A stretch of 52,603 nucleotides of DNA from Candidatus Neomarinimicrobiota bacterium. Lineage in GTDB: Bacteria > Fidelibacterota > UBA8477 > JABMPR01. Made by a program: the position numbers and the translations under genes. The DNA is taken from positions 1-52,603 of the forward strand of contig JAYEKW010000016.1 in assembly GCA_034716895.1 (NCBI GenBank), in the 5' to 3' direction. Positions 9,539 through 45,586 of the stretch are shown here, in pieces (within the stretch, counting starts at the first letter, position 1; every line of letters begins with the position of its first letter). The notes beneath the pieces are model-generated. The model worked only from the letters and a program-made list of their open reading frames with translations. It searched no databases and had not been told where the DNA came from.

Positions 9539-10909
9539 ATGAAAAAAATTCTCGTAGTTGATGATGACCTAAGTCTCAGAACGATTCTGAACGAAACGCT
9601 CTCTACTTCAGGATTTAATGTGGAAATAGCGAAGGATGCTAAAGCAGCCCTTGAACTATTATCAGAAAACCAATTTGACCTGGTGATATCAGATCTCATG
9701 ATGCCTGGCATGACAGGTGTTGAATTTATGGTTGCAGCTCGAAATATTTATGAAAATCTGGGATTCTTGATCATCACAGCCTATGGTACAGTTGAAACTG
9801 CGGTTGATGCTTTGCATAAAGGTGCTTTCGATTTTATAACCAAACCCTTCTCAATATCACAGATAGAGTCTCGGGTTACTCGCTATTTTGATTATCAGGA
9901 ATTAAAAGCTGAGAATAAAGCGCTAAAACGTAAACTCTCAGATGATAGGAAGTACACAAAATTGGTTGGTCAAAGTCCTGAAATGGAGCGGGTTTTCAGT
10001 CAGATCAGCATTGTAGCACGAAGCGATGCAGCTGTTTTTATTCAAGGTGAAAGTGGAACAGGAAAAGAACTGATCGCGCAATCTATTCATGAGGGGAGTG
10101 ATCGATCAGATAAACCATTTTTAAAGATCAACTGCTCGGCAATTCCTGAGTCTTTGTTTGAAAGCACCTTATTTGGACATGAGAAGGGTTCATTCACCAA
10201 TGCGATCAAAATGCATAAAGGACTTTTTGAAGAAGCTGATGGGGGGACTCTGCTATTAGATGAGATCAGTGAAATTCCGACTACGATGCAGGCAAAGCTA
10301 TTGCGTGTACTGCAAAATCGCACGATCACCAGAGTTGGGAATACTCAGGAACTGGATGTCGATGTGCGGGTGATCGCAACTTCAAACCAAGACATCGATA
10401 AGCTGATCAAAGAGGGCTATTTTCGGTCAGACTTATATTATCGTTTAAATGTTTTTCCAATCATAGTGCCACCGTTGCGGATGAGAAATTCTGACATTCC
10501 TCTTTTGATAGACCACTTCCTGGGGAAGTTTAAGATTAAATATCGCTTTGAACACAAAGAGGTATCTGCTGAAACCTTGAAATTAATATCAAAGGAAGAC
10601 TGGCCCGGAAATGTTCGCCAACTCGAAAATATTATTGAACGTGCGGTCCTCTATTCGGGAGAAGATGAGCGAATTGCCATAGAACACTTTAATCTTGAGG
10701 CTGAGATATTGAAAGCCGATGATGCAAGTTCCATTAAGGCTGTTACAACAATCGCAGAGATGGAAAAGCAGATGATCCATAATGCATTGAAGCGAACAAC
10801 GAATAATCGTACTCAGGCAGCTGATCTGCTTGGCATAAGTGTGCGAACCCTGCGTAATAAACTGCATCTATACGATGAAATGGGTAAGGGTATGCTGAAA
10901 TATGAGTAA
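9539..10909 (+). CDS. sigma-54-dependent NtrC-type activator, probable flagellar master regulator
   Basis: 456 residues. Receiver (1-115; Asp52 in ISDLMMPG, Lys102), AAA+ domain (about 140-370; Walker A GESGTGKE 170-177, Walker B GGTLLLDE 235-242, arginine-finger region YFRSDLYYRL) and a Fis-type helix-turn-helix (about 407-444, NNRTQAADLLGISVRTLRNKL). The sigma-54 contact loop reads GSFTNA (217-222) instead of GAFTGA: the Phe-Thr core is kept, the flanking Ala and Gly are changed. The family opens sigma-54 promoters from distant enhancer sites. All four operons here have sigma-54 promoters with a common palindrome upstream, so this is the likely binder, comparable to FlgR or FlrC. It is the last gene of operon A. 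Confidence 0.92.
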   Translation: MKKILVVDDDLSLRTILNETLSTSGFNVEIAKDAKAALELLSENQFDLVISDLMMPGMTGVEFMVAARNIYENLGFLIITAYGTVETAVDALHKGAFDFITKPFSISQIESRVTRYFDYQELKAENKALKRKLSDDRKYTKLVGQSPEMERVFSQISIVARSDAAVFIQGESGTGKELIAQSIHEGSDRSDKPFLKINCSAIPESLFESTLFGHEKGSFTNAIKMHKGLFEEADGGTLLLDEISEIPTTMQAKLLRVLQNRTITRVGNTQELDVDVRVIATSNQDIDKLIKEGYFRSDLYYRLNVFPIIVPPLRMRNSDIPLLIDHFLGKFKIKYRFEHKEVSAETLKLISKEDWPGNVRQLENIIERAVLYSGEDERIAIEHFNLEAEILKADDASSIKAVTTIAEMEKQMIHNALKRTTNNRTQAADLLGISVRTLRNKLHLYDEMGKGMLKYE

Positions 10910-17924: not shown

Positions 17925-18469
17925 AACAAATCATCATGTGGTCTCTAATGATTGTGGCTTTGTTTGTAGTGTTGATCGCTGTAGCATTTTTTGCCCTTGG
18001 TTTTATGACACCTGACCCCAATGAAACAGGCCAGACACTGGCAGTATCAGAAAATGAATTGGCTAGTACAGACACAACGCAAGGTGTACAGCCAAAGATC
18101 AGTAAAGCAGATTCATTACAAATAATCATAAATGATCTTACCAATACTTTGTTCTTCGCCAGAGTCACTCTGGATAGCTTGAATGATGAACTAAGTATTA
18201 AAGAGGGAATAATTCAGGGGCACGTTTTGCAAGTTGAATCTCTGAAATCGAACTTGCAAACCCTCCAGGACAAGCATGTTTCTATCAAAGAACTGGCAAA
18301 AACCTATGAGACAATGAAAGTCGCCGAGATCAAGCCAATTTTAGAGAGAGTGGATGACAAAACCATTATTGCCATCTATCAAAATATGAGTGGCCGTAGC
18401 AGGAAGAACCTGATGAAGGCTCTGAATAGTGAACGAGCAGCCCACCTAACCATAAAACTTGCAGGGTGA
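17921..18469 (+). CDS. MotE-like flagellar protein with MgtE_N-type domain
   Basis: 182 residues. One N-terminal membrane segment (about 5-27) is followed by a coiled coil (about 60-120) and a C-terminal helical domain (YETMKVAEIKPILERVDDKTI, then NMSGRSRKNLMKALN) resembling the MgtE N-terminal domain found in MotE/YlxF proteins. MotE of alphaproteobacteria is a periplasmic chaperone for MotC; homologues lie between fliJ and fliK in many species. A GGAGG site precedes the start. The function in this lineage is inferred from position and domain. Confidence 0.8.
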   Translation: MKQIIMWSLMIVALFVVLIAVAFFALGFMTPDPNETGQTLAVSENELASTDTTQGVQPKISKADSLQIIINDLTNTLFFARVTLDSLNDELSIKEGIIQGHVLQVESLKSNLQTLQDKHVSIKELAKTYETMKVAEIKPILERVDDKTIIAIYQNMSGRSRKNLMKALNSERAAHLTIKLAG

Positions 18470-18474
18470 TCAAT

Positions 18475-20859
18475 ATGAATCATAAAGTACCAATTGTTGA
18501 ATTGAAAAATCCCAAGAATGAGGCGGTGGCACATCCCGGAAAGACCAGAGAGGGTGGCGAATTTCCTTACGATGATCTCTTGAAAACGGGTTCACCCACT
18601 GAGGAAATAATTCAAAAGACAAGAGGGTCGAACCAGGCCAACATATTTGTGAATGCACGTTTTGGTAAAAACGGAAAAAAGATACCTCTCAAAGCCAAAC
18701 CAATTTTGGATACAAGAAATATATCACAAAACCAGAAGCGACCTTCCCCACAGGTCAAAGCAGAATCTGGAGATGATCAAAAGGCTGAAGTAAAACCCGG
18801 ATCCAGAGCTTCCGAACCAGTCAAAACGTTGTTTGAAGCTGACCGGGGAACACCCGCTGATGAGACTAAGCTTGTGGCGAGATCAAAGACATCAGATCAA
18901 ACAAAGAATACTGGAAAACGCGGGATGCAGGAGATGGATACCGTCCCTGCAAATCCGTTGATGAAACCTGATGCGAACGTTCTCATTAACCCAGGGAAAG
19001 AAAACTCAAAGGAAAATCTACAAGCCCAATTAAAGACCAGAATAGCAAGATCTGCAAATGTCAAAGTTGGGATTGAACCGGATCGGCGCATTTCAGATAA
19101 GCTTAAGGCAGGTTTAAATGATGCAAAACAGAGATCAGGTATAGATCGATCAGAAAACATTGTGACAACCAAGCCAGCCCCCATGAAAAATGAGACTCAG
19201 AATACCACTCCACCTGACCTGAGGGAGGGTTCTCAACAGAACCGGAATCCTGGTCATAATATGACCCAACCTGCATCTGAGGGACAGAAAATTGCAAATG
19301 CACAAGCTATACCAATAAAGGACAGGGCACCGGCATCTGCAAATAGTCATCCGGTTGGGGAAAAAAGCACAACCGTTCAGGAGCCGTCCAAGATCAATGC
19401 TGGTAAAAATTCTGCCGCTGAGCAACCCACTATGAAGATGACAAAAAGGTCTCAGGGAAACCTGGAGAAGTCAACAGTCAGATCAAATAGCCGCGATTCA
19501 CAACAAATTGTCAGAGAGTCTAAGACCGTTATCGGGCAGATTAATTCGAAGTCAAAACAGATGCCCATCTCAACTCCCGAGCCGAAAGATACACCGGCTG
19601 ATCGAACCCATAACAAGCCAAGTAGACCTGAAAAGGTTGAAGTAGTTCAATCTGTTGAACCACTTCAGAAAGCAGGAAAACAGACAGCGCCAGATACTAT
19701 TTCGCCAACCAGACCCGTTGTGGAAGCAAGCTCAGTTCAGAAAACAAATGGGTCGGAGGAATCCAAGCCAATCAAGTCCAAAAGCAATCCCGTATCTGAA
19801 AAATCTATTGAGAATCATAGCTCGGATCGGGTGTCAAAATCGTCGGAATCAAAGGCACAACAGGCTTCGAAGGTTAATCATATACAAAATACAGTATCCC
19901 ACGCGGTTGATCGCCGGGTTATTACCAGCGGTTCAGTGCCTGTGGCTAGAGAAGCCATAAATCAAGACCTGGAAATTGTACAGAAACAAGAAGTTGCACC
20001 AGATTCTGAAAAGATCATCAAGCAAAGCAGTGCGGCAATGATCATGGGTGAGGCAGACAAACCTAAATCTGCAAAATCACGAAAACAGTCCCAGACTACC
20101 AAGCGTGGCGTAAGCCGAAAGACAAATATCTCGCCTACAGAACATCTCCGAACCAGGCAGATCAAAAAAATATATGGAACACAAGCAGTTCATGAAAAAG
20201 TCGTTGATCCCTTGAGTGATAATTCTACGGATATCTTAAAACAACAGTTGCATGAAAGAATAAATGTTCTGAAGAAAGCACAGGAGTCTATAACGAATAG
20301 CCCGGAACAACAATCCGATCAAAATTTTAATCGGGATGTGTCCATGAAGGCTAATCCAGGTTTAAACGTTTCCCCAGGCACGGAGACGAGTGGATTCTAT
20401 TCCAGAACAAATGCTGCTCTATTTACCCGTAGTTTTGCCTCTGAAATGGTGGAAAAGATTCGAGCTATAACTGATAGCAAGTTGACTGGCAATGGAGGGT
20501 TGAAAACCAGCTTTGTAGTTGACGGTGGTCAGATGGGCCAGCTGGATATTGAATTTCAGCAAGAATCGAGTAAGGAACAGGTGACCATCTTTGTAGATAG
20601 TGAAAATTCCCGGATCGATCTCATGCGATTGATGCCACAGATCGAAGATAATCTTCAGCAACGCGGGTTCAGCTTTGCCGGGTTGGATGTTGAAGTAAGG
20701 AGTGACCAAAAAGAGAGTGATTCGGCTAATAATGCCGAGAAAGACAGCTCTCATTCAGATAAACAGGAAGTAACCTCATCAGAGAAAGGGATGAGTGATG
20801 AAAGTAAGTCAGTCACAAACCGTAATTATGGCTACAACACTATGGAAGTGTTGGCCTAA
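18475..20859 (+). CDS. fliK: flagellar hook-length control protein FliK
   Basis: About 794 residues, nearly twice the enterobacterial FliK (405). Residues 1-620 are low complexity, rich in Lys, Ser, Pro, Gln and Glu with almost no hydrophobic core, as in the secreted molecular ruler. The C-terminal domain (about 660-745, GGLKTSFVVDGGQMGQLDIEF, then MRLMPQIEDNLQQRGF) is the FliK substrate-switch domain that meets FlhB. The long ruler may imply a long hook, but no such rule is proven. GGGTGA lies just before the ATG at 18475; GTG 18466 would add three residues. Confidence 0.9.
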   Translation: MNHKVPIVELKNPKNEAVAHPGKTREGGEFPYDDLLKTGSPTEEIIQKTRGSNQANIFVNARFGKNGKKIPLKAKPILDTRNISQNQKRPSPQVKAESGDDQKAEVKPGSRASEPVKTLFEADRGTPADETKLVARSKTSDQTKNTGKRGMQEMDTVPANPLMKPDANVLINPGKENSKENLQAQLKTRIARSANVKVGIEPDRRISDKLKAGLNDAKQRSGIDRSENIVTTKPAPMKNETQNTTPPDLREGSQQNRNPGHNMTQPASEGQKIANAQAIPIKDRAPASANSHPVGEKSTTVQEPSKINAGKNSAAEQPTMKMTKRSQGNLEKSTVRSNSRDSQQIVRESKTVIGQINSKSKQMPISTPEPKDTPADRTHNKPSRPEKVEVVQSVEPLQKAGKQTAPDTISPTRPVVEASSVQKTNGSEESKPIKSKSNPVSEKSIENHSSDRVSKSSESKAQQASKVNHIQNTVSHAVDRRVITSGSVPVAREAINQDLEIVQKQEVAPDSEKIIKQSSAAMIMGEADKPKSAKSRKQSQTTKRGVSRKTNISPTEHLRTRQIKKIYGTQAVHEKVVDPLSDNSTDILKQQLHERINVLKKAQESITNSPEQQSDQNFNRDVSMKANPGLNVSPGTETSGFYSRTNAALFTRSFASEMVEKIRAITDSKLTGNGGLKTSFVVDGGQMGQLDIEFQQESSKEQVTIFVDSENSRIDLMRLMPQIEDNLQQRGFSFAGLDVEVRSDQKESDSANNAEKDSSHSDKQEVTSSEKGMSDESKSVTNRNYGYNTMEVLA

Positions 20860-27374: not shown

Positions 27375-28308
27375 TCGCTTCGAATCAATTCAAGCGACAG
27401 TCCTTGAGGTTCTCTCTCAGCTATTTAAGCATGAGTTTAACATTGATCAGTCCCTGATCGGTTCTGGTGAGCCCAAGAATGACATTCAGAATGAGGTATT
27501 TCCCAAGGTTATACTTCAATTCAAAACCAATACGCCAGATCCCATTCAACAGGTTTGGGCACTGCCATCTGATATGGTGCTGAACCTGTATGCCTGGATG
27601 GTCGAGATGGAAGCTGATGAAGCAGTCAAGGATGAACACCTTGAGGGACTGAAAGAAGGGATCGAGCAAATATTTGGCCAGATACGAGCCGTTTTGGATG
27701 GGGAAGGGATCGCACTGGACATTGCAGATCTACAGGTGACCCTGATCGATAGTCTGGATGTGCTGGATCTGGAAAGTGCCCCGGCAGAGGGAACTGCAGC
27801 AGCATACTCCGTCGTAGTCGACGACCAGAGTTATACTGTCAATCAATACCTTTTTACAGAGTTTGCGGCAGAGGGCAATGAAAAGGCTGATACTGCTCTA
27901 TCCGATGATGAAATTGATAATATGCTAAATGGAGAAGAAGTAGACGCTCGCGTAAGTGTTGATGATGATCTTGATGAAGAAGTTGATGTCCAGGACGTTG
28001 AATTTGGTGCCTTTGATGAGAATGCTGGAGTTGGTTTCAATGGACACCCCAGAAATATCGACTTGCTCCTCGATGTAGACCTGGAAGTACTGGTAGAGCT
28101 CGGACGTAAGACCATGCTCATCAAAGAGGTCCTGAAGCTGGGGAAAGGTTCTGTAGTAGAGCTTGATAAAGCAGCTGGTGAACCCCTAGGTATATTTGTA
28201 AATGGAAGAAAGCTGGCTGAAGGTGAAGTCGTTGTGATAGACGATCATTTTGGTATTCGTATCACTCAATTGGCAGGTACAGCGGAACGCATCAAGAGCT
28301 TGGGATGA
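27340..28308 (+). CDS. fliN: FliN/FliY-type motor switch protein with extra N-terminal domain
   Basis: 322 residues, much longer than E. coli FliN (137). The C-terminal SpoA domain (about 238-312; NIDLLLDVDLEVLVELGRK, LGKGSVVELDKAAGEPLGIFVNG) is diagnostic. The N-terminal 170 residues resemble a CheC/CheX-like domain as in FliY, but the Glu-x-x-Asn phosphatase signature was not found. A linker (about 175-235) is very acidic and contains LSDDEIDNML (187-196), like the FliM docking motif. The ATG at 27340 has GGAG nine bases upstream; ATG 27331 would add three residues. Confidence 0.9.
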   Translation: MKNEDFNTKLSNRFESIQATVLEVLSQLFKHEFNIDQSLIGSGEPKNDIQNEVFPKVILQFKTNTPDPIQQVWALPSDMVLNLYAWMVEMEADEAVKDEHLEGLKEGIEQIFGQIRAVLDGEGIALDIADLQVTLIDSLDVLDLESAPAEGTAAAYSVVVDDQSYTVNQYLFTEFAAEGNEKADTALSDDEIDNMLNGEEVDARVSVDDDLDEEVDVQDVEFGAFDENAGVGFNGHPRNIDLLLDVDLEVLVELGRKTMLIKEVLKLGKGSVVELDKAAGEPLGIFVNGRKLAEGEVVVIDDHFGIRITQLAGTAERIKSLG

Positions 28309-28790
28309 GAACCAAACTGAACAAAGCCAGCTACAATAAACAGGGCTCAACTATATTTGCCATCATCTTTGCCCTAATCGCAATACTTGGCATAATGTCG
28401 ATTCTGACACCTCCATCAGTACCGGAGCCAGAAGAGCCTTCACAGATCATAAATACGCGAAGCAACTATAGCGGTTATCTCTCTCGTGTCGTTATAGTAA
28501 CCCTGACTATGATCGTTATACTGGTTGTCGGATTGAAGATGTATCAGAAAAACAATAAGCGGGGTGGTAAGAATAGCTTAGGAATAAATATTCTAGGTAG
28601 ACACTATATCAATAATAAGCAATATTTACTTAAAGTATTAGTTGAAGATAAATATCTTCTGCTTGGTGTATCTGAATCCACTATAAATTTTATTACTGAA
28701 TTAGAAGATTCTACCGATATGGGATCTTCTTCTGACACTTCCTTTGGATCTATTATTGATCTGGAAACCAAAGAGGAAACTAAAGTTTGA
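28305..28790 (+). CDS. fliO: flagellar biosynthesis protein FliO
   Basis: 161 residues. Two hydrophobic segments (about 18-34 and 60-78) bracket a short Pro-rich periplasmic part, followed by a cytoplasmic domain (LGINILGRHYINNKQYLLKVLVEDKYLLLGVSES) with the FliO pattern. FliO helps FliP fold and assemble. It overlaps fliN and fliP by a few bases. The C-terminal tail is acidic and Ser-rich. Confidence 0.85.
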   Translation: MRTKLNKASYNKQGSTIFAIIFALIAILGIMSILTPPSVPEPEEPSQIINTRSNYSGYLSRVVIVTLTMIVILVVGLKMYQKNNKRGGKNSLGINILGRHYINNKQYLLKVLVEDKYLLLGVSESTINFITELEDSTDMGSSSDTSFGSIIDLETKEETKV

Positions 28791-34892: not shown

Positions 34893-35788
34893 TGCTGGAA
34901 CCACGTACAACACCCAGTATTTTTGCACTCTCGAATTTGAGGGTGGAGAATAATCGGCCTGAGATATTTGCCATCACCTCCGGGAAAGGGGGCGTCGGAA
35001 AGACCAATATAAGTGTCAATCTAGCGCTGCTGTTGAGACGTCTAAAGAAAAATGTACTGCTGGTTGATGCCGATATTCATCTTGGCAACGTGGATCTCAT
35101 GTTGGGCATCCGTCCCGGAGCCACCTTGGCAGATGTCATATCCGGTGAGAAGGCCTTGGCAGAAATTATTGTGAAGGGACCTACTGGTATTGATGTCATG
35201 CCAGCTTCATCAGCTGTTTTGGATATGATCGATGCTGAGGAAAAAGTGATTAAACGTTTGGGTGATGCCTTTCTGAATTTCGAACACAACTACGACCTGG
35301 TGATCGTGGATACGGGTGCTGGTATTGGTCGAAATGTCACTTCTTTTTCATTAGGGGCAGACAAGGTTATTGTGGTTGTAACCCCTGATCCAGCTTCCAT
35401 TGCAGATGCTTATGGGGTGATCAAGATCCTGTTGCAGAAGGCACCTAATCTGCCCATCATGTTGGTTACAAATATGGTTCAAAGTGATGATGAGGGTGAA
35501 AATTTATACAAAAAGATGGATTTGATGGTTCAACGCTTTTTGCAGAATAAAATTCTTTTTGGAGGAGCGATTGTACGTGATGACAGTGTTCAGGATGCAG
35601 TTCGTCGTCAGGTTCCCGTTGTTCTTGAATACCCAAATTCGCGACCCTCGAATTCCTTGAAAATGATGACTAGAAATTTATTGAAGCTGCCCTCAAAGGA
35701 TGCTTCAGAACGAATCAGTCTGTTTGATGGTGTTAGAGAGAACAGAAATGAGATTGTAGGAAATATCAATGATCAAACTAGCAAATAA
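34892..35788 (+). CDS. flhG: MinD-like ATPase FlhG (FleN/YlxH)
   Basis: 298 residues. The deviant Walker A motif [10 protein letters not shown] with the signature Lys, then [18 protein letters not shown] and VDTGAGIG, identify a MinD/ParA-type ATPase. FlhG limits flagellar number, stimulates FlhF GTPase activity and in some species restrains the sigma-54 activator FleQ. Whether it acts on the NtrC-type activator of this locus is an open question. Its end overlaps the next gene by 20 bases. Confidence 0.95.
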
Positions 35789-35972
35789 ATTCGCCATACT
35801 CGTTTCAGCTATAACATTTGTGATGTGTCTTATCGGAGAGATATCGATCACAACAAGCCTTCTTCGAACAGGGATCGTTTTTGTTGGTGTATTGTTCGCA
35901 TTCTATCTATCCGGACAAATATTAAAACTAGGTCTCATTGTAATGACACCGCAAAAGAAGAGTGATGCATGA
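35769..35972 (+). CDS. small two-segment membrane protein (67 aa)
   Basis: 67 residues with two hydrophobic segments (about 8-27 and 33-57) and a short basic tail. It overlaps flhG by 20 bases and its TGA overlaps the fliA start, so it is part of the chain. AGGAA precedes the ATG. No family is recognised; its place between flhG and fliA suggests a flagella-linked role, but the sequence itself shows only a small membrane protein. Confidence 0.7.
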
Positions 35973-36751
35973 TGCAAAGGACTCAAGTAGTTCACCATGA
36001 TGGTGAGCATCTCGTACAACAATATACCTTAACAGGTGATGATCGTATCCGAGAAGAGGCAATTCAAGCCTTTCTGCCGTTGGTTAAATACATCGCTGGT
36101 CGCATAAAGATCGATCAATTTGGCAGTTTAGCTCGTGAGGATCTGTATCAATTTGGGATTGTGGGACTTTTAACAGCTTTGGATCGCTATCAATCAGGCA
36201 AAGGAGCCAGCTTTAAAACCTTTGCTTATCGTCGGATCCACGGTGAGATGATTGATGCAATACGCCGAGAAAGTACGGTTAGTAAGGATGCTTACAGTAT
36301 CCGCAAAAAGATCATTATGCTCTCTGATAACATGCGTCAGGAACTGGGTCGTGATCCTGCCTTGAGTGAGATAGCCGATGAAATGAACGTGACTACAGAG
36401 GAGTTGAATGCCATGTTGTTCAAGGGTGATAGCCGCGAACACCTGTCTTTGAATGATAGTGTGGGGGGGGATGATACAGATTCCATGCAGCGTCTTGATG
36501 TCATCAAAGATGAATCCCAGCTTTCTCCTGATGAAATATTTGGCCAGAAGGCCTTAAAACAGGAACTTATGGGCGTTATCAAGCATCTTCCGGAAAGACA
36601 AAGATTGGTATTGGCACTCTACTATTATGAGGAATTGACCCTGGCAGATATTGGTATGATCCTGGGACTATCCGAATCTCGGATAAGTCAGATACTAAGC
36701 CAGACACTGGCCGAGATACGGGTTCAGGTCAATCAAAAAAAAGGAACCTAA
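35969..36751 (+). CDS. fliA: flagellar sigma factor FliA (sigma-28)
   Basis: 260 residues. Region 2 (ALDRYQSGKGASFKTFAYRRIHGEMIDAIRRE) and region 4 (LPERQRLVLALYYYEELTLADIGMILGLSESRISQ) are typical for FliA. Sigma-28 transcribes late flagellar genes such as flagellin. No clear sigma-28 promoter was spotted in this window, so its targets are probably outside it. The second codon pair (ATG at 35972) is an alternative start. The following gene could be an anti-sigma factor, but that is not shown. Confidence 0.96.
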   Translation: MMQRTQVVHHDGEHLVQQYTLTGDDRIREEAIQAFLPLVKYIAGRIKIDQFGSLAREDLYQFGIVGLLTALDRYQSGKGASFKTFAYRRIHGEMIDAIRRESTVSKDAYSIRKKIIMLSDNMRQELGRDPALSEIADEMNVTTEELNAMLFKGDSREHLSLNDSVGGDDTDSMQRLDVIKDESQLSPDEIFGQKALKQELMGVIKHLPERQRLVLALYYYEELTLADIGMILGLSESRISQILSQTLAEIRVQVNQKKGT

Positions 36752-36753
36752 TA

Positions 36754-37014
36754 ATGCCTGCAGATGAATTAGGTAGCACGTATAGTTCAAAGCCTGTTCG
36801 CTTTTCCCAGGCCATCAAGCCGGTTGGTAAAGAAATGGATCGGGAACAGCAGAAAAAAACAGGCTCAGATGAGGAAGAAACACTTGAGCGTGAGCATGAC
36901 TCGGTAAATCTGTCATCCGGTGAAAAACTTCCTCAGAAGGTCACAATCAACGAGAATCTTGCGGAAGATGATGACCTGATTCCCGGTTCGCACATCGATT
37001 TGACCATAGGATAA
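36754..37014 (+). CDS. small acidic protein after fliA (86 aa)
   Basis: 86 residues, highly charged, with many Glu, Asp, Lys and Ser and few hydrophobic residues, so probably disordered. It contains DSVNLSSGEKLPQ, which faintly recalls the DxVxLS start of the FlgM sigma-28-binding region, but the helices that follow in FlgM are not evident. AAGGA precedes the ATG, two bases after fliA. A FlgM-like anti-sigma role is possible from position; the evidence is weak. Confidence 0.6.
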   Translation: MPADELGSTYSSKPVRFSQAIKPVGKEMDREQQKKTGSDEEETLEREHDSVNLSSGEKLPQKVTINENLAEDDDLIPGSHIDLTIG

Positions 37015-37016
37015 CA

Positions 37017-37937
37017 ATGCCCAGAGCGAAGACTATATTGATTCTTGCAAGCTTATTGATGCTTCACGATCCTGGATGTAGTCAAGAGAAAATGGCGGTC
37101 ACTGATATAGCGATCGAGGTGGTAGAAGACCTAAAAGCTGACGAAGTATTGATCCAAGCCTTAAGAATAAACAGTGGAGAAGATTCATCGCGTCGTTGGC
37201 TCAGCATTTCCGGCGAGGGTTTAAACTCCGGTTCAACTCTTTTGTATCCCATCTATGAAACCAATGGTAATGAAGGTAGCTTTTGGATAAAACTTACTGG
37301 GTTCGAAACATCTGCCTATCTCGGGAATCGAATGCTGCGAGACCATGGGCAATACCCCATTCATTTTCAAGTTGACCTTATAGACTCACAAACAGTGGCT
37401 ATAACTGGCAAAACGCTACCCTATGATGACGTCAGGTGCACCTATTCTTTTGATCTGGATGAGTACCGCCTCGAATTCATCTTCCATGAGTCCACACCAA
37501 TGCAATTATTTGATCCAGCTAGCCCGAATCAGCCTTCCCATGATTCGAACCTAAGCTTTGCTTCTGGAGAGGGACGGTCTATAGCGAGTGGGACCACTCA
37601 TAGGAATAGTACCAAAAAGGTTTGGGGTATGCTCAAGGATTCTGTCATGATCGCATCAAGTGTTTTAGGATTGGTTCTTTTAATTCTAGGCATAATTCTG
37701 ACCATCATCAAAATGAAACAAAAGTGGCCAGCCAAATCGCAGAAATTTGCCGATGTACTTGGCCGGAAGGCTCAAAATGATGATCATGTTCCGGAAGTCG
37801 ATAACGATGTTCCTCCAGTCAATACGCCTGAAATACAGGAGGCGAGGATCCGTGAGCTTATGCAGACAGACAATATCAGTTATGATGAAGCCTCACTGCG
37901 TATTCAATATCAAACAATGAATCTGGACAGTGACTGA
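37017..37937 (+). CDS. exported single-pass membrane protein of unknown function
   Basis: 306 residues. An N-terminal signal-like segment (1-22, ending MLHDPGCSQ) precedes a roughly 185-residue beta-rich extracytoplasmic region, one membrane segment (about 209-232) and a charged cytoplasmic tail. The tail ends with an amphipathic helical motif (RIRELMQTDNISYDEASLRI). The Cys at 21 does not follow a good lipobox (Asp at -3), so a lipoprotein is doubtful. It starts two bases after the preceding gene and overlaps the next. No family is recognised. The architecture suits a sensor or envelope anchor linking periplasm and cytoplasm. Confidence 0.75.
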   Translation: MPRAKTILILASLLMLHDPGCSQEKMAVTDIAIEVVEDLKADEVLIQALRINSGEDSSRRWLSISGEGLNSGSTLLYPIYETNGNEGSFWIKLTGFETSAYLGNRMLRDHGQYPIHFQVDLIDSQTVAITGKTLPYDDVRCTYSFDLDEYRLEFIFHESTPMQLFDPASPNQPSHDSNLSFASGEGRSIASGTTHRNSTKKVWGMLKDSVMIASSVLGLVLLILGIILTIIKMKQKWPAKSQKFADVLGRKAQNDDHVPEVDNDVPPVNTPEIQEARIRELMQTDNISYDEASLRIQYQTMNLDSD

Positions 37938-38223
37938 GCAACAGACACAACCGGAATTTCGAAACGTATGGGCTGTCTCAGGACTGGAGCAGTTTGTGGA
38001 TAGACTTCAGCCAGGAATGGAACTTGATGGTCGTATTGTAGAGGTATTGGGGAACCATATATATATTCTTAGAATATGGGGGAATAACATCCTGACTGAA
38101 TCAAATCATACTTTCAATAAATTGGATGAGGTCGTGCTATCCGTCAGAGCTGTCAAACCTAAGCTGGTTTTTAACCTGCGGCCAATCGCAACAGGAAATT
38201 CAAAAGGATCGATCTACGCTTAG
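37930..38223 (+). CDS. small beta-rich protein resembling a FliK-associated domain (97 aa)
   Basis: 97 residues from a GTG start overlapping the previous stop. The core (GMELDGRIVEVLGNHIYILRIWG, NILTESNHTF, DEVVLSVRAVKPKLVFNLRP; quoted as short parts) follows a pattern of alternating strands like an OB fold. It resembles, from memory, a domain seen in FliK-like hook-length proteins of other phyla, here as a stand-alone gene. That link needs a profile search. It precedes the PAS kinase by 40 bases. Confidence 0.65.
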   Translation: MTEQQTQPEFRNVWAVSGLEQFVDRLQPGMELDGRIVEVLGNHIYILRIWGNNILTESNHTFNKLDEVVLSVRAVKPKLVFNLRPIATGNSKGSIYA

Positions 38224-38263: not shown

Positions 38264-39490
38264 ATGAAACCCGGAAAGCAAAGCAACCCTCCATCTGAGA
38301 TCAAAAGTTCCCAACGGGATCGAATTCAAGAGATCAAAGATTATACAACCACGGTAACGATCCTGGAAAGTATTACAGATGCCATATTCATTCTGAATGT
38401 TGAGGGCAAGATTGAATATGCCAATCAAAGTGCTCAGGAGTATCTGCAATTGCCGCTGGAGTCTGTCATCGGGATGGACCTGGGTAGTTTTATCACCAGT
38501 GACGATGGAGAAATTCAGCAATTGCTCCACAGTGGGAGTCGCTTTGCATCGTCAGATTCCGGCATTGAGCCTGACTATTGTAGCAGCTCTGAGGCTGAAC
38601 TATCCGGTGGGAAACAGCAGATTCCGGTTTTGATCAATTTTAGCAGTATTCCTGATTCAAAAGGATCTTTGAAATATTTTATTGTGACAGCCAAAGAGAT
38701 CGCTTATCGCAAAAGCCTGGAAATGCAGCTTAAGAATCGCCAGGTTCTTTCAGTATCATTTGATCGTCTGAAGGTTCTGGGTGAGATGTCAGTTGGTCTG
38801 GTGCATACATTGGGACAACCGGTTACTGCAATGAAACTGCGCCTGGATCATATCGCTCAACTGACCAGCCTGGATGAGGTTCAAAAACAGGTGCGTGAAT
38901 TGCATAGGGATATCGAACGTTTGTCTGCTATTGTCGAGAAAGTTCGGTCTTATGCACAGGTCATGGCTGATAAACAGACCAGTTCAGTTGATATCAATGA
39001 CATTGTGCACTCCATGTTGCAGATTCTGGACTATGATCTGAGCCAGGCAAACATTGTCCTTGAACTTGATCTAAGTGATTCACTTCCATTCATTGTAGCC
39101 CACGTGCCAGAACTCGAACAAGTATTTTTGAATTTGCTGACCAATGCCATGCAGGCTTTCCAGGTTAACCAGATCACTGGGGAGCAAAATATTTCCATAT
39201 CTACCAGGAATATTGAGGAGAAATGGGTGGAAATAGGTATTCAGGACAATGCTGGGGGTATTCCAGAATCAATATCTACAAAGATGTTTGAACCGTTTTT
39301 TTCAACCTGGGATGAGAGTAGGCATGCCGGAACCGGATTGTCAGTAGCCCGTAGTATTGTTGCCTCGCTGGGGGGGGACTTAAAATATATTGCAACAGAA
39401 AGTGGCTCATGTTTTAAGATGCGAATCCCCATAGTTCAATCAGAAGAACGTGCCCAGCTGATCAATATGATCGAGCTTTTGAACAGTTAG
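38264..39490 (+). CDS. PAS-domain histidine kinase, likely partner of the flagellar activator
   Basis: 408 residues, no membrane segment. A PAS domain (about 30-150), HisKA with His181 in MSVGLVHTLGQPVTAMK, then HATPase with the N box near N290-N294 and the G2 box HAGTGLSVARS (354-364). It resembles FlgS-type cytoplasmic kinases that phosphorylate sigma-54 activators when the export apparatus is complete. It lies downstream of export genes in the same operon, which fits such a checkpoint. The partner is inferred to be the NtrC-type regulator at 9539. No strong binding site precedes the ATG. Confidence 0.88.
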   Translation: MKPGKQSNPPSEIKSSQRDRIQEIKDYTTTVTILESITDAIFILNVEGKIEYANQSAQEYLQLPLESVIGMDLGSFITSDDGEIQQLLHSGSRFASSDSGIEPDYCSSSEAELSGGKQQIPVLINFSSIPDSKGSLKYFIVTAKEIAYRKSLEMQLKNRQVLSVSFDRLKVLGEMSVGLVHTLGQPVTAMKLRLDHIAQLTSLDEVQKQVRELHRDIERLSAIVEKVRSYAQVMADKQTSSVDINDIVHSMLQILDYDLSQANIVLELDLSDSLPFIVAHVPELEQVFLNLLTNAMQAFQVNQITGEQNISISTRNIEEKWVEIGIQDNAGGIPESISTKMFEPFFSTWDESRHAGTGLSVARSIVASLGGDLKYIATESGSCFKMRIPIVQSEERAQLINMIELLNS

Positions 39491-39543
39491 TGATCCATAC
39501 TTGTTGTTGCGAACGAACACATCGAGAGTTTACAGGAGTTTAT

Positions 39544-40356
39544 ATGGTAGCCACAGATTTTCTGCATGAGATAGTGACCCTGCTGCAGAAGGGTTTAGGA
39601 GCCGGCGAAACATTTGAAGCTGTTTTTCACCTGGTGGAAAAAAGTGTTTCTTTTGAGTCTGCCACCCTCTTTCTGTATCAAGAGGAGGAAGACAAATTGG
39701 AAATCATGCATCAAGAGGGTTCCGAGGTTGTGGATCTCATCAGAGAGATTCCCTTTTCAAGGGGAATGGGAATGGCAAGTTGGGTTTCTCAGCAGGAGAA
39801 GCCTATCATACTTGAATCTCTGTCAAAATCACGTCCCGGTAAAGAACGGCGATTCACATCCTTCGTATCGCTGCCTCTAAGAGCTGCTGGTAAACTGATA
39901 GGAGTTCTGAATCTGGGTCACTCAACTCCCAATATGTATCTGCAAAGTGAGATCAAATCTTTCACGGTGATGGCAGAAGAACTTTCAATAATTGTGGAAA
40001 CCTTCATCCTGCGCGAAAAATTGGAAACAAAGAACCAGAGACTCACAATTGCTCTGGAGGATCTGCATGCTGCCCAGGGATTGATTGTAGAAAAAGAACG
40101 GATGGCAGCCATGGGTGAATTAGTGGTGACCGTCAATCACGAGATTAATAATCCTTTGACTTCTGTTATTGGCTTGGCTGAGATCCTGGAACTTTCATTT
40201 GCTACCCTTTCTCCAGAGAAAGCCCAAAATGCGATCAAAGCGATTCTGAAAGAAGCCCGACGAATTCAGGAGATCACCAATCGTCTTACCCGTATAACCA
40301 GCTCAGAGAACATCGGTTATGTAGGTGATACTTTGATGACAAAACTACCTGAGTAG
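39544..40356 (+). CDS. GAF-HisKA protein lacking an ATPase domain
   Basis: 270 residues. A GAF domain (about 5-155) is followed by a coiled linker and a HisKA domain with His199 in VTVNHEINNPLTSVIG. The protein ends shortly after (TRITSSENIGYVGDTLMTKL), with no HATPase domain, so it cannot phosphorylate itself. The ATG at 39544 has AGGAG five bases upstream; ATG 39490 would add 18 residues of unlikely composition. It may act as a phosphotransfer module served by the preceding kinase, or form heterodimers with it. It is the last gene of operon C. Confidence 0.85.
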   Translation: MVATDFLHEIVTLLQKGLGAGETFEAVFHLVEKSVSFESATLFLYQEEEDKLEIMHQEGSEVVDLIREIPFSRGMGMASWVSQQEKPIILESLSKSRPGKERRFTSFVSLPLRAAGKLIGVLNLGHSTPNMYLQSEIKSFTVMAEELSIIVETFILREKLETKNQRLTIALEDLHAAQGLIVEKERMAAMGELVVTVNHEINNPLTSVIGLAEILELSFATLSPEKAQNAIKAILKEARRIQEITNRLTRITSSENIGYVGDTLMTKLPE

Positions 40357-44669: not shown

Positions 44670-45065
44670 ATGAAGATTACCCCAGATATAGCAATTGAAC
44701 AACAAAAACAGATCGAGCCTTGTAAGAATTCATCACCAGATACCGATCTTAGCGCCAGAGATATTCAGCTTATGAAAAAGAGCAATGAGTTAGAAGCTGT
44801 TTTTCTCACACAATTGATCAAGTCCATGGAGAAAACCATTCCAGACGGGTTAGGAGGTGGAAAAAACTCACTCTCCACCATGATGTTTAGCTCCGTCATG
44901 GGTGATGCTATGACGCAGGGGGGTGGCATCGGGCTCTCAAAAATGATCTTTGCTTCATTACGGAGTATGGATGGAGCACCAGATACACAAGAGCTTGGTG
45001 GTGAGGACTACCTGCAAACCTTCAATGTATTACAAAGTATTAGTTCCTTAAAGGATGAGCAATGA
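44670..45065 (+). CDS. flgJ: FlgJ-type rod-binding protein without muramidase domain
   Basis: 131 residues. Only the rod-binding N-terminal domain is present (KSNELEAVFLTQLIKSMEKTI, LSTMMFSSVMGDAMTQGGGIGLSKMIFASL). The C-terminal peptidoglycan hydrolase domain of E. coli FlgJ (313 aa) is absent, as in many non-gammaproteobacterial forms, so a separate hydrolase must open the wall. It follows flgI and overlaps flgN by four bases. Confidence 0.9.
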   Translation: MKITPDIAIEQQKQIEPCKNSSPDTDLSARDIQLMKKSNELEAVFLTQLIKSMEKTIPDGLGGGKNSLSTMMFSSVMGDAMTQGGGIGLSKMIFASLRSMDGAPDTQELGGEDYLQTFNVLQSISSLKDEQ

Positions 45066-45586
45066 ATGAACTCCTGAATAATGGAGACGGAGCCTTCAAG
45101 GAACTGATCCAGTGTCTTGAACATGAAGTCAAATTGTACAATCAACTTGGTGATCTTTTGAAAGCCAAGCAATCCAATATTATCAAAGGGGATGTTGAAT
45201 CCCTCCAAAACAATGTTCACGAAGAACAACGATTGATTCCAAAGATACGCACCGCAACCCGGGCAAGGGAACTACGGGCAGCTACGATTGCAGCAGTATC
45301 AAAAATGAGTTGTAAAACACCCTCGTTAATGGAATTGATCGATCTGACACCCTCTCATTATTCACAACAGTTGATCGAGTATCGGGAACACCTCATTCTC
45401 AGACTTGATCAAATTGCTCACGCAAATCGTGAGAATGAATTCCTCCTTAATTCCTCCCTTGAATTAGTGAGAGGGCTTGTTCAGGTCCTTTTAGGCAAAG
45501 CTGAGAATGAAAACATCCACTACGGTGGCCATGGGCAGGTATATGACGATCAAACCCACAACGCCCGTGTGGATTGTCAGGTATGA
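45062..45586 (+). CDS. flgN: FlgN-like export chaperone for FlgK/FlgL
   Basis: 174 residues, mainly helical. ELIQCLEHEVKLYNQLGDLLKAKQSNIIKGDVESLQ is a typical FlgN N-terminal half (quoted in part), with a second helical pair following. It lies directly before flgK, whose product it should bind. Sequence conservation in this family is low, so the call also rests on size and place. Confidence 0.85.
   Translation: MNELLNNGDGAFKELIQCLEHEVKLYNQLGDLLKAKQSNIIKGDVESLQNNVHEEQRLIPKIRTATRARELRAATIAAVSKMSCKTPSLMELIDLTPSHYSQQLIEYREHLILRLDQIAHANRENEFLLNSSLELVRGLVQVLLGKAENENIHYGGHGQVYDDQTHNARVDCQV

Follow-up and report, generated by a model that had tools for sequence, protein, structure and literature searches.

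Genes at the locus

The window analysed here is a stretch of 52,603 nucleotides from a Candidatus Neomarinimicrobiota bacterium (contig JAYEKW010000016.1), whose genome is called G000 below. Three open reading frames (ORFs), ORF1 to ORF3, lie in it between fliA, the gene of sigma-28, and a pair of kinase genes, HK1 and HK2. These three form a real and conserved flagellar accessory set. It is a variant of known accessory machinery, for which a mechanism is proposed below. The genes and their parts are given below (aa, amino acids; E, expect value).

35969..36751, + strand: fliA (sigma-28), anchor of the block; FliA/WhiG sigma factor, TIGR02479 E 3.1e-58, above cut-off
36754..37014, + strand: ORF1, 86 aa, ATG start; charged and probably disordered, with DSVNLSS in mid-protein and a C-terminal tag, GSHIDLTIG
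37017..37937, + strand: ORF2, 306 aa, ATG start; predicted exported single-pass protein with an AMIN-like domain, a transmembrane helix and a cytoplasmic IRELM...ISYDEA tail
37155..37493, + strand: AMIN-like beta-sandwich of ORF2, residues 47-159, from structural comparison of the predicted model
37611..37721, + strand: ORF2 helix spanning the transmembrane stretch, residues 199-235, from the model, with hydrophobicity judged by eye
37827..37928, + strand: predicted cytoplasmic two-helix tail of ORF2 with SYDEA, residues 271-304, from the model and alignment
37930..38223, + strand: ORF3, 97 aa, GTG start; OB-fold, a free-standing relative of the FliK-like N-terminal domain
38264..39490, + strand: HK1, PAS-HisKA-HATPase kinase; HisKA below cut-off, E 0.00024
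39490..40356, + strand: HK2, GAF-HisKA, strongly conserved, no HATPase domain found by domain scan and alignment

ORF1 starts 2 bases past the fliA stop, ORF2 starts 2 bases past ORF1, and ORF3 overlaps ORF2 by 8 bases. Coordinates and spacing are as an initial annotation of this DNA had described them, and its assignment of fliA to sigma-28 agrees with the TIGR02479 match. The kinase pair that it placed behind the block is real, but the second member has GAF and HisKA domains without an HATPase domain. None of ORF1, ORF2 and ORF3 has a family above cut-off in Pfam or NCBIfam scans, and sequence searches against solved structures gave nothing under E 0.4.

Conservation and gene order

The sample consists of 199 genomes of Marinimicrobia (Neomarinimicrobiota), of which 40 have FlhA and 159 do not. 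Genomes that supply rows to a profile match that profile by construction. The control is the set without FlhA, where strong matches number 0 of 159 for each of the three ORFs.

A search with the single ORF2 sequence matched 20 of the 199 genomes, all with FlhA. The ORF2 profile matched 41 at E <=0.01. The 31 matches at E <=1e-17 are all in genomes with FlhA, and the other ten are weak (2.1e-4 to 7.1e-3). Nine of these weak ones are in genomes without FlhA; the tenth is in G130, which has FlhA, and is located downstream of fliA. For ORF3, the profile matched 26 genomes: 25 at E <=8.6e-7, all with FlhA, and one weakly, without it. Two of the 25 strong matches, in G001 and G007, are part of FliK-like proteins. 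The ORF1 profile behaves similarly, with 34 genomes matched, 33 of them at E <=1.2e-4 and with FlhA, and one weak match (0.007) without. Since strong profile matches are confined to genomes with FlhA, ORF1, ORF2 and ORF3 go together with the flagellum in this phylum; each is a protein family conserved among flagellated Marinimicrobia.

Gene order was compared over 40 stretches around ORF2 or flhA from the FlhA-bearing genomes, some of them ended by contig ends. In the window's relatives the order is flhA-flhF-flhG-small membrane gene-fliA-ORF1-ORF2-ORF3-HK1-HK2-flgF-flgG. That the block goes together with fliA and the kinases, as the reading in the initial annotation requires, is supported by this recurring order and by strong matches only where FlhA is encoded.

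There are variants. Nine loci, family f18, are without ORF3 and HK1, and one of these (L088) also lacks HK2. Two more, L078 and L089, have fliA and miss ORF1 and ORF3. In L084 there is no fliA after flhF. A scan of named genomes for ORF3 gave 8 loci, 7 from Candidatus Neomarinimicrobiota/Marinimicrobia and one from Candidatus Electryoneota (L151). As a side observation, no flhF match was seen between flhA and flhG in L079 and L151, which have no ORF2. L034 likewise has no flhF match there, yet ORF2 is present.

The ORF2 alignment (A2) holds 25 of 32 collected proteins. Excluded were L042 (a fragment), L073 and L076 (non-homologous), L082, L083, L086 and L088. One retained member, L029, lies at the end of contig 101 of G073; its frame opens with helicase-like sequence and is probably an assembly chimera. 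In a domain scan of the alignment, one member shows helicase matches. Alignment A4 holds 30 of 31 ORF1 proteins, without L082. A3 holds all 22 proteins, and A5 holds 7 of 22, picked for conservation.

ORF2: a predicted envelope domain and a conserved tail

The predicted structure of ORF2 has a mean predicted local distance difference test score (pLDDT) of 73.3 and a predicted template modelling score of 0.44. The blocks of the beta domain are all above 80 and those of the tail helices above 90. The model shows nine strands at residues 50-155, a helix at 199-235 and tail helices at 271-285 and 289-304. A signal peptide and a hydrophobic stretch were read by eye. ORF2 had been described as an exported single-pass protein with a helical cytoplasmic tail, and the model, itself a prediction, shows this topology.

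Structural comparison of the model returned, at the top, PilQ 4aqz (Z 11.1, root-mean-square deviation (rmsd) 3.4, 107 residues aligned) and PilQ 4av2 (Z 11.0, 2.5, 97). Rows three and four are AmiC 4bin (Z 10.7, 3.0, 107) and the type IVa pilus machine 3jc8 chain Qa (Z 10.3, 2.6, 96). The N-domain of PflA and a human CS domain follow, both at Z 7.8, and then small heat-shock/CS domains. Chain Qa of 3jc8 is taken by us to be PilQ; PilQ B2 and AmiC 30-145 are the AMIN domains of their proteins. Foldseek alone gave no match for ORF2 under E 0.001, with PilQ first at 0.0094. A predicted AMIN-like beta-sandwich fold for the periplasmic domain of ORF2 is well supported by the comparison of the model.

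The tail carries a motif, IRxLM...GISYDEA, that recurs in family f18 (whole protein E 2.8e-19, tail E 3.2e-8). Four columns of the ORF2 alignment are invariant or nearly so, and two of these, E291 and A292, are in the tail. One of the 25 members touches the FliZ model, at E 0.011.

Two genomes have other proteins in the position of ORF2. In G007 (L076) this is an exported protein with a DUF6115/DUF2802 tail above both cut-offs. In G001 (L073) there are tetratricopeptide repeat (TPR) matches, all under cut-offs, behind the N-terminal part. No similarity was detectable between ORF2 and either of these. DUF6115 (PF19610) gave no match for ORF2 and two weak matches on other contigs of G000; only the L076 protein passed its cut-off.

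ORF3 and FliK

Two longer proteins, one of 409 aa in G001 and one of 361 aa in G007, are matched in their N-terminal part by the ORF3 profile (E 1.1e-10 and 1.2e-6, in that order). At the C-terminus each has a Flg_hook-like region (E 2.6e-6 and 0.0094, below gathering score). Going by these profile matches, ORF3 is clearly a homologue of the N-terminal domain of FliK-like proteins, which agrees with its earlier description as FliK-associated-like. The Flg_hook switch domain (PF02120) is absent in the 22 ORF3 members scanned; ORF3 is 97 aa in all. The predicted structure has five strands at a mean pLDDT of 78.6, with OB-type matches at a generic Z of up to 7.5. Such matches to the model are generic and show no function.

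ORF1 and the anti-sigma question

ORF1 contains 19 D/E and 10 K/R among its 86 residues, and its disorder was judged from this composition. Its 31 relatives were chosen as genes starting -20 to +40 bases from the fliA stop. They are charged proteins of 66-105 aa, and 23 of the 31 have a DxVxLS-like motif.

The C-termini of the whole set carry a hydrophobic tag, [ILVF][DN][ILVF]x[ILVFA], with at most 2 residues beyond. Elsewhere this tag is found in 7 of 466 other assigned locus proteins, 5 of which are FlgN, and in 20 of 827 ORFs of at least 100 aa. A related terminal pattern, [ILVMF][DNE]xx[ILV] with at most 1 residue beyond, occurs in 29 of 31 ORF1 proteins and 20 of 22 FlgN proteins, and in 11 of 444 other assigned locus proteins, 6 of them FliP. 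The FlgN of Escherichia coli ends in KKISI and carries a YGANGQ stretch, taken by us for the tyrosine motif that reportedly docks at FlhA. Because no such FlgN-like tyrosine motif was seen in ORF1, a docking tag for the export gate stays a lead for its tail.

The initial annotation had proposed ORF1 as a candidate anti-sigma factor. The Pfam FlgM model is over cut-off in 7 of the 199 genomes and has no match in G000. A profile (A1) was made from 9 proteins of this Pfam search, 4 of them from genomes over cut-off, with two FlgM-like repeats each, by eye. This profile finds a FlgM relative, away from ORF1, in 34 of the 40 genomes with FlhA, and no match in the other six (G016, G025, G042, G051, G073 and G186). 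The one in G000 is as follows.

Contig 141 of G000 (L140), 275-745, - strand: FlgM relative, profile A1 E 7.7e-26, two FlgM-like repeats

It adjoins an unassigned 142-aa gene as well as flaG (E 1.4e-18) and fliD (E 1.7e-43). Since the Pfam model misses the FlgM relative, its assignment relies on profile A1 and on the flagellar genes around it. Profile comparison of ORF1 with the FlgM relative gave 21 columns at a probability of 12.5, with only a short DxVxIS-like motif in common. Neither ORF1 nor the other 29 members of A4 match FlgM (PF04316). Because a FlgM relative exists elsewhere in the genome, ORF1 is unlikely to be the anti-sigma factor. On these comparisons ORF1 is very unlikely to be FlgM.

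The kinases

HK2 has GAF and HisKA in all 30 proteins scanned and HATPase in none, and its H217 and E218 are nearly invariant. Of the 25 aligned HK1 proteins, 17 have an acidic residue directly after the H-box histidine; the window and its four congeners have T or S there, and three others have Q, N or A. HK1 and HK2 are possibly a split kinase.

Across 31 loci, which are related and not phylogenetically independent, ORF3 and HK1 are concordant in 29, and ORF2 and HK1 in 20. It is ORF3, rather than ORF2, that tracks HK1. The table behind these counts was entered by hand. In L073 and L076, position alone counted as presence of ORF2 and ORF3. For L078 and L089, ORF2 was scored as present from its position and a SYDQA tail, and the 227-aa protein in the HK2 position of these two was scored as absent.

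Other genes in the window

35769-35972: gene of a small membrane protein, lying between flhG and fliA; seen again in many loci, without a family in Pfam or NCBIfam
9539-10909: sigma-54 response regulator
28305-28790: FliO, short, 161 aa (PF04347 E 1.3e-9)
18466-20859: FliK (Flg_hook E 7.2e-5, below gathering score)
45062-45586: FlgN

Interpretation

The likeliest reading, at roughly even odds, is that the block consists of flagellar assembly accessories of Marinimicrobia. Within it ORF2 would hold the basal body or export apparatus in place, stabilise it or license it, in the manner of an AMIN-bearing FliO or of SwrB of Bacillus subtilis. ORF2 would be exported and have a single anchor in the inner membrane. 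From there its AMIN-like domain could reach peptidoglycan or neighbouring parts of the basal body, and its short tail may touch the basal body or the export gate from the cytoplasm. ORF3, a FliK-like OB domain minus the switch domain, probably works in the cytoplasm, either in this step too or on the kinase encoded next to it. ORF1, presumably disordered and encoded right behind FliA, would bind a partner via its C-terminal tag, and is not taken to be FlgM.

In the text drawn on here, AMIN domains are reported on FliO, AmiC, PilQ and PflA and are said to bind peptidoglycan; that of Campylobacter jejuni FliO is needed for FlhB stability, and those of FliO and PflA are proposed to link flagellar components with the cell envelope (PMC12403147). 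SwrB, which crosses the membrane once, is described as an activator of the export gate (PMC4526659). Because the FliO of the window is short, the AMIN-like module would sit on a separate gene.

Several results weigh against the accessory reading. A Pfam scan of ORF2 returned only two unrelated models (E 0.027 and 0.029) and no AMIN. Pfam, NCBIfam and the sequences of solved structures gave no AMIN or FliO match, and AMIN is not among the families listed for 25 ORF2 members (25 of 34 families). The domain is called AMIN-like because the fold was found and the Pfam sequence match was not. AMIN is argued from predicted fold and SwrB from topology only. A DUF6115/SwrB-type tail was considered for ORF2, and sequence comparison showed no similarity to a tail of that type. 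Finally, L079 and the Electryoneota locus L151 miss ORF2 and keep ORF1, ORF3 and both kinases, so ORF2 is not needed in every such flagellum.

Alternatively, ORF2 might belong to the motor itself: like PflA, it would be a structural protein in the periplasm that serves rotor or stators as a scaffold, and it would take no part in export or regulation. The PflA N-domain is the fifth row of the structural comparison (rmsd 3.2, 93 aligned), the protein in the ORF2 position of G001 has the TPR matches noted above, and for PflA itself a scaffold role in the motor and an AMIN domain are reported (PMC12403147). However, its Z is tied with that of an unrelated CS domain and is within the range that the tool gives for common arrangements. 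The G001 protein is also not detectably homologous to ORF2. PflA moreover is not known to have a transmembrane helix with a cytoplasmic tail, whereas two of the conserved ORF2 columns are in just such a tail, and we regard a scaffold of this kind as rather unlikely. Unlikely, too, is a kinase checkpoint, in which ORF2 would sense the state of the envelope or hook and signal it, via its tail or ORF3, to HK1 and HK2; these would set a sigma-54 response regulator. Gene order, the ORF3/HK1 concordance and the presence of such a regulator in the same window fit this. Yet ORF2 is retained without HK1 or ORF3 in the nine f18 loci and is missing beside HK1 in two loci; co-occurrence speaks against an ORF2-HK1 link and for an ORF3-HK1 one. 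The FlgS of C. jejuni, as reported, senses FliF-FliG directly, and the way in which FlrB and FleS follow the state of the export gate is given as unresolved (PMC7064773). Because of this last point, a sensing role survives mainly for ORF3 and HK1.

In its fullest form, such a checkpoint would have ORF2 report contact between basal body and peptidoglycan, while ORF3, as a hook-ruler domain detached from FliK, passes the status of the export gate to a split kinase, with HK1 as ATPase part and HK2 supplying the phospho-accepting histidine. We consider this very improbable. If true, the block would be the unidentified factor considered for flagellar kinases of the FlrB/FleS type. Also improbable is that ORF1 is a second regulator of FliA, an anti- or co-factor other than FlgM. 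In 31 loci it starts a short way from the end of fliA, though they were selected for such a start; the profile search finds the family again in 33 genomes with FlhA; and the DxVxLS-like motif is shared with FlgM. Against this stand the separate FlgM relative in most genomes with FlhA, the short profile match to it, the lack, by eye, of a region resembling the FlgM helices, and L078 and L089, where fliA is present without ORF1.

The comparison places three unnamed protein families firmly in a flagellar context in Marinimicrobia. Searches of the open-access literature gave no title on the flagellum of Marinimicrobia or Neomarinimicrobiota and no paper on DUF6115. A FliK domain stands alone beside a flagellar kinase. 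How FlrB/FleS-type kinases read assembly status is, in the account used here, not settled (PMC7064773), and the ORF3-HK1 link offers a testable candidate.

Comparison with known systems

FlgM resembles ORF1 in that both are small, charged and flagellar and have a DxVxIS-like motif. The difference is that ORF1 shows no FlgM helices by eye, and that G000 encodes a separate FlgM relative.

The FliK-like hook-length control proteins have an N-terminal OB domain that ORF3 matches. Unlike these, ORF3 has no Flg_hook domain, and the window has its own FliK.

Three systems come close to ORF2. PflA has an AMIN-like N-domain similar to that of ORF2 (Z 7.8), followed by a large TPR part. SwrB, whose gene adjoins the sigma-28 gene, is a single-pass flagellar accessory protein with a cytoplasmic part, as far as it is described; it is likened to ORF2 by topology alone. 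The AMIN-domain FliO, reported from Campylobacterota and others, shares with ORF2 an exported AMIN-type domain, one transmembrane helix, a cytoplasmic C-terminal part and a place in a flagellar cluster. In the model, however, ORF2 has only helices after the transmembrane stretch and no FliO beta-sheet, and the window has a short FliO as a gene of its own at 28305-28790. An AMIN-type module that is known on FliO and PflA would here be carried by a membrane protein of its own.
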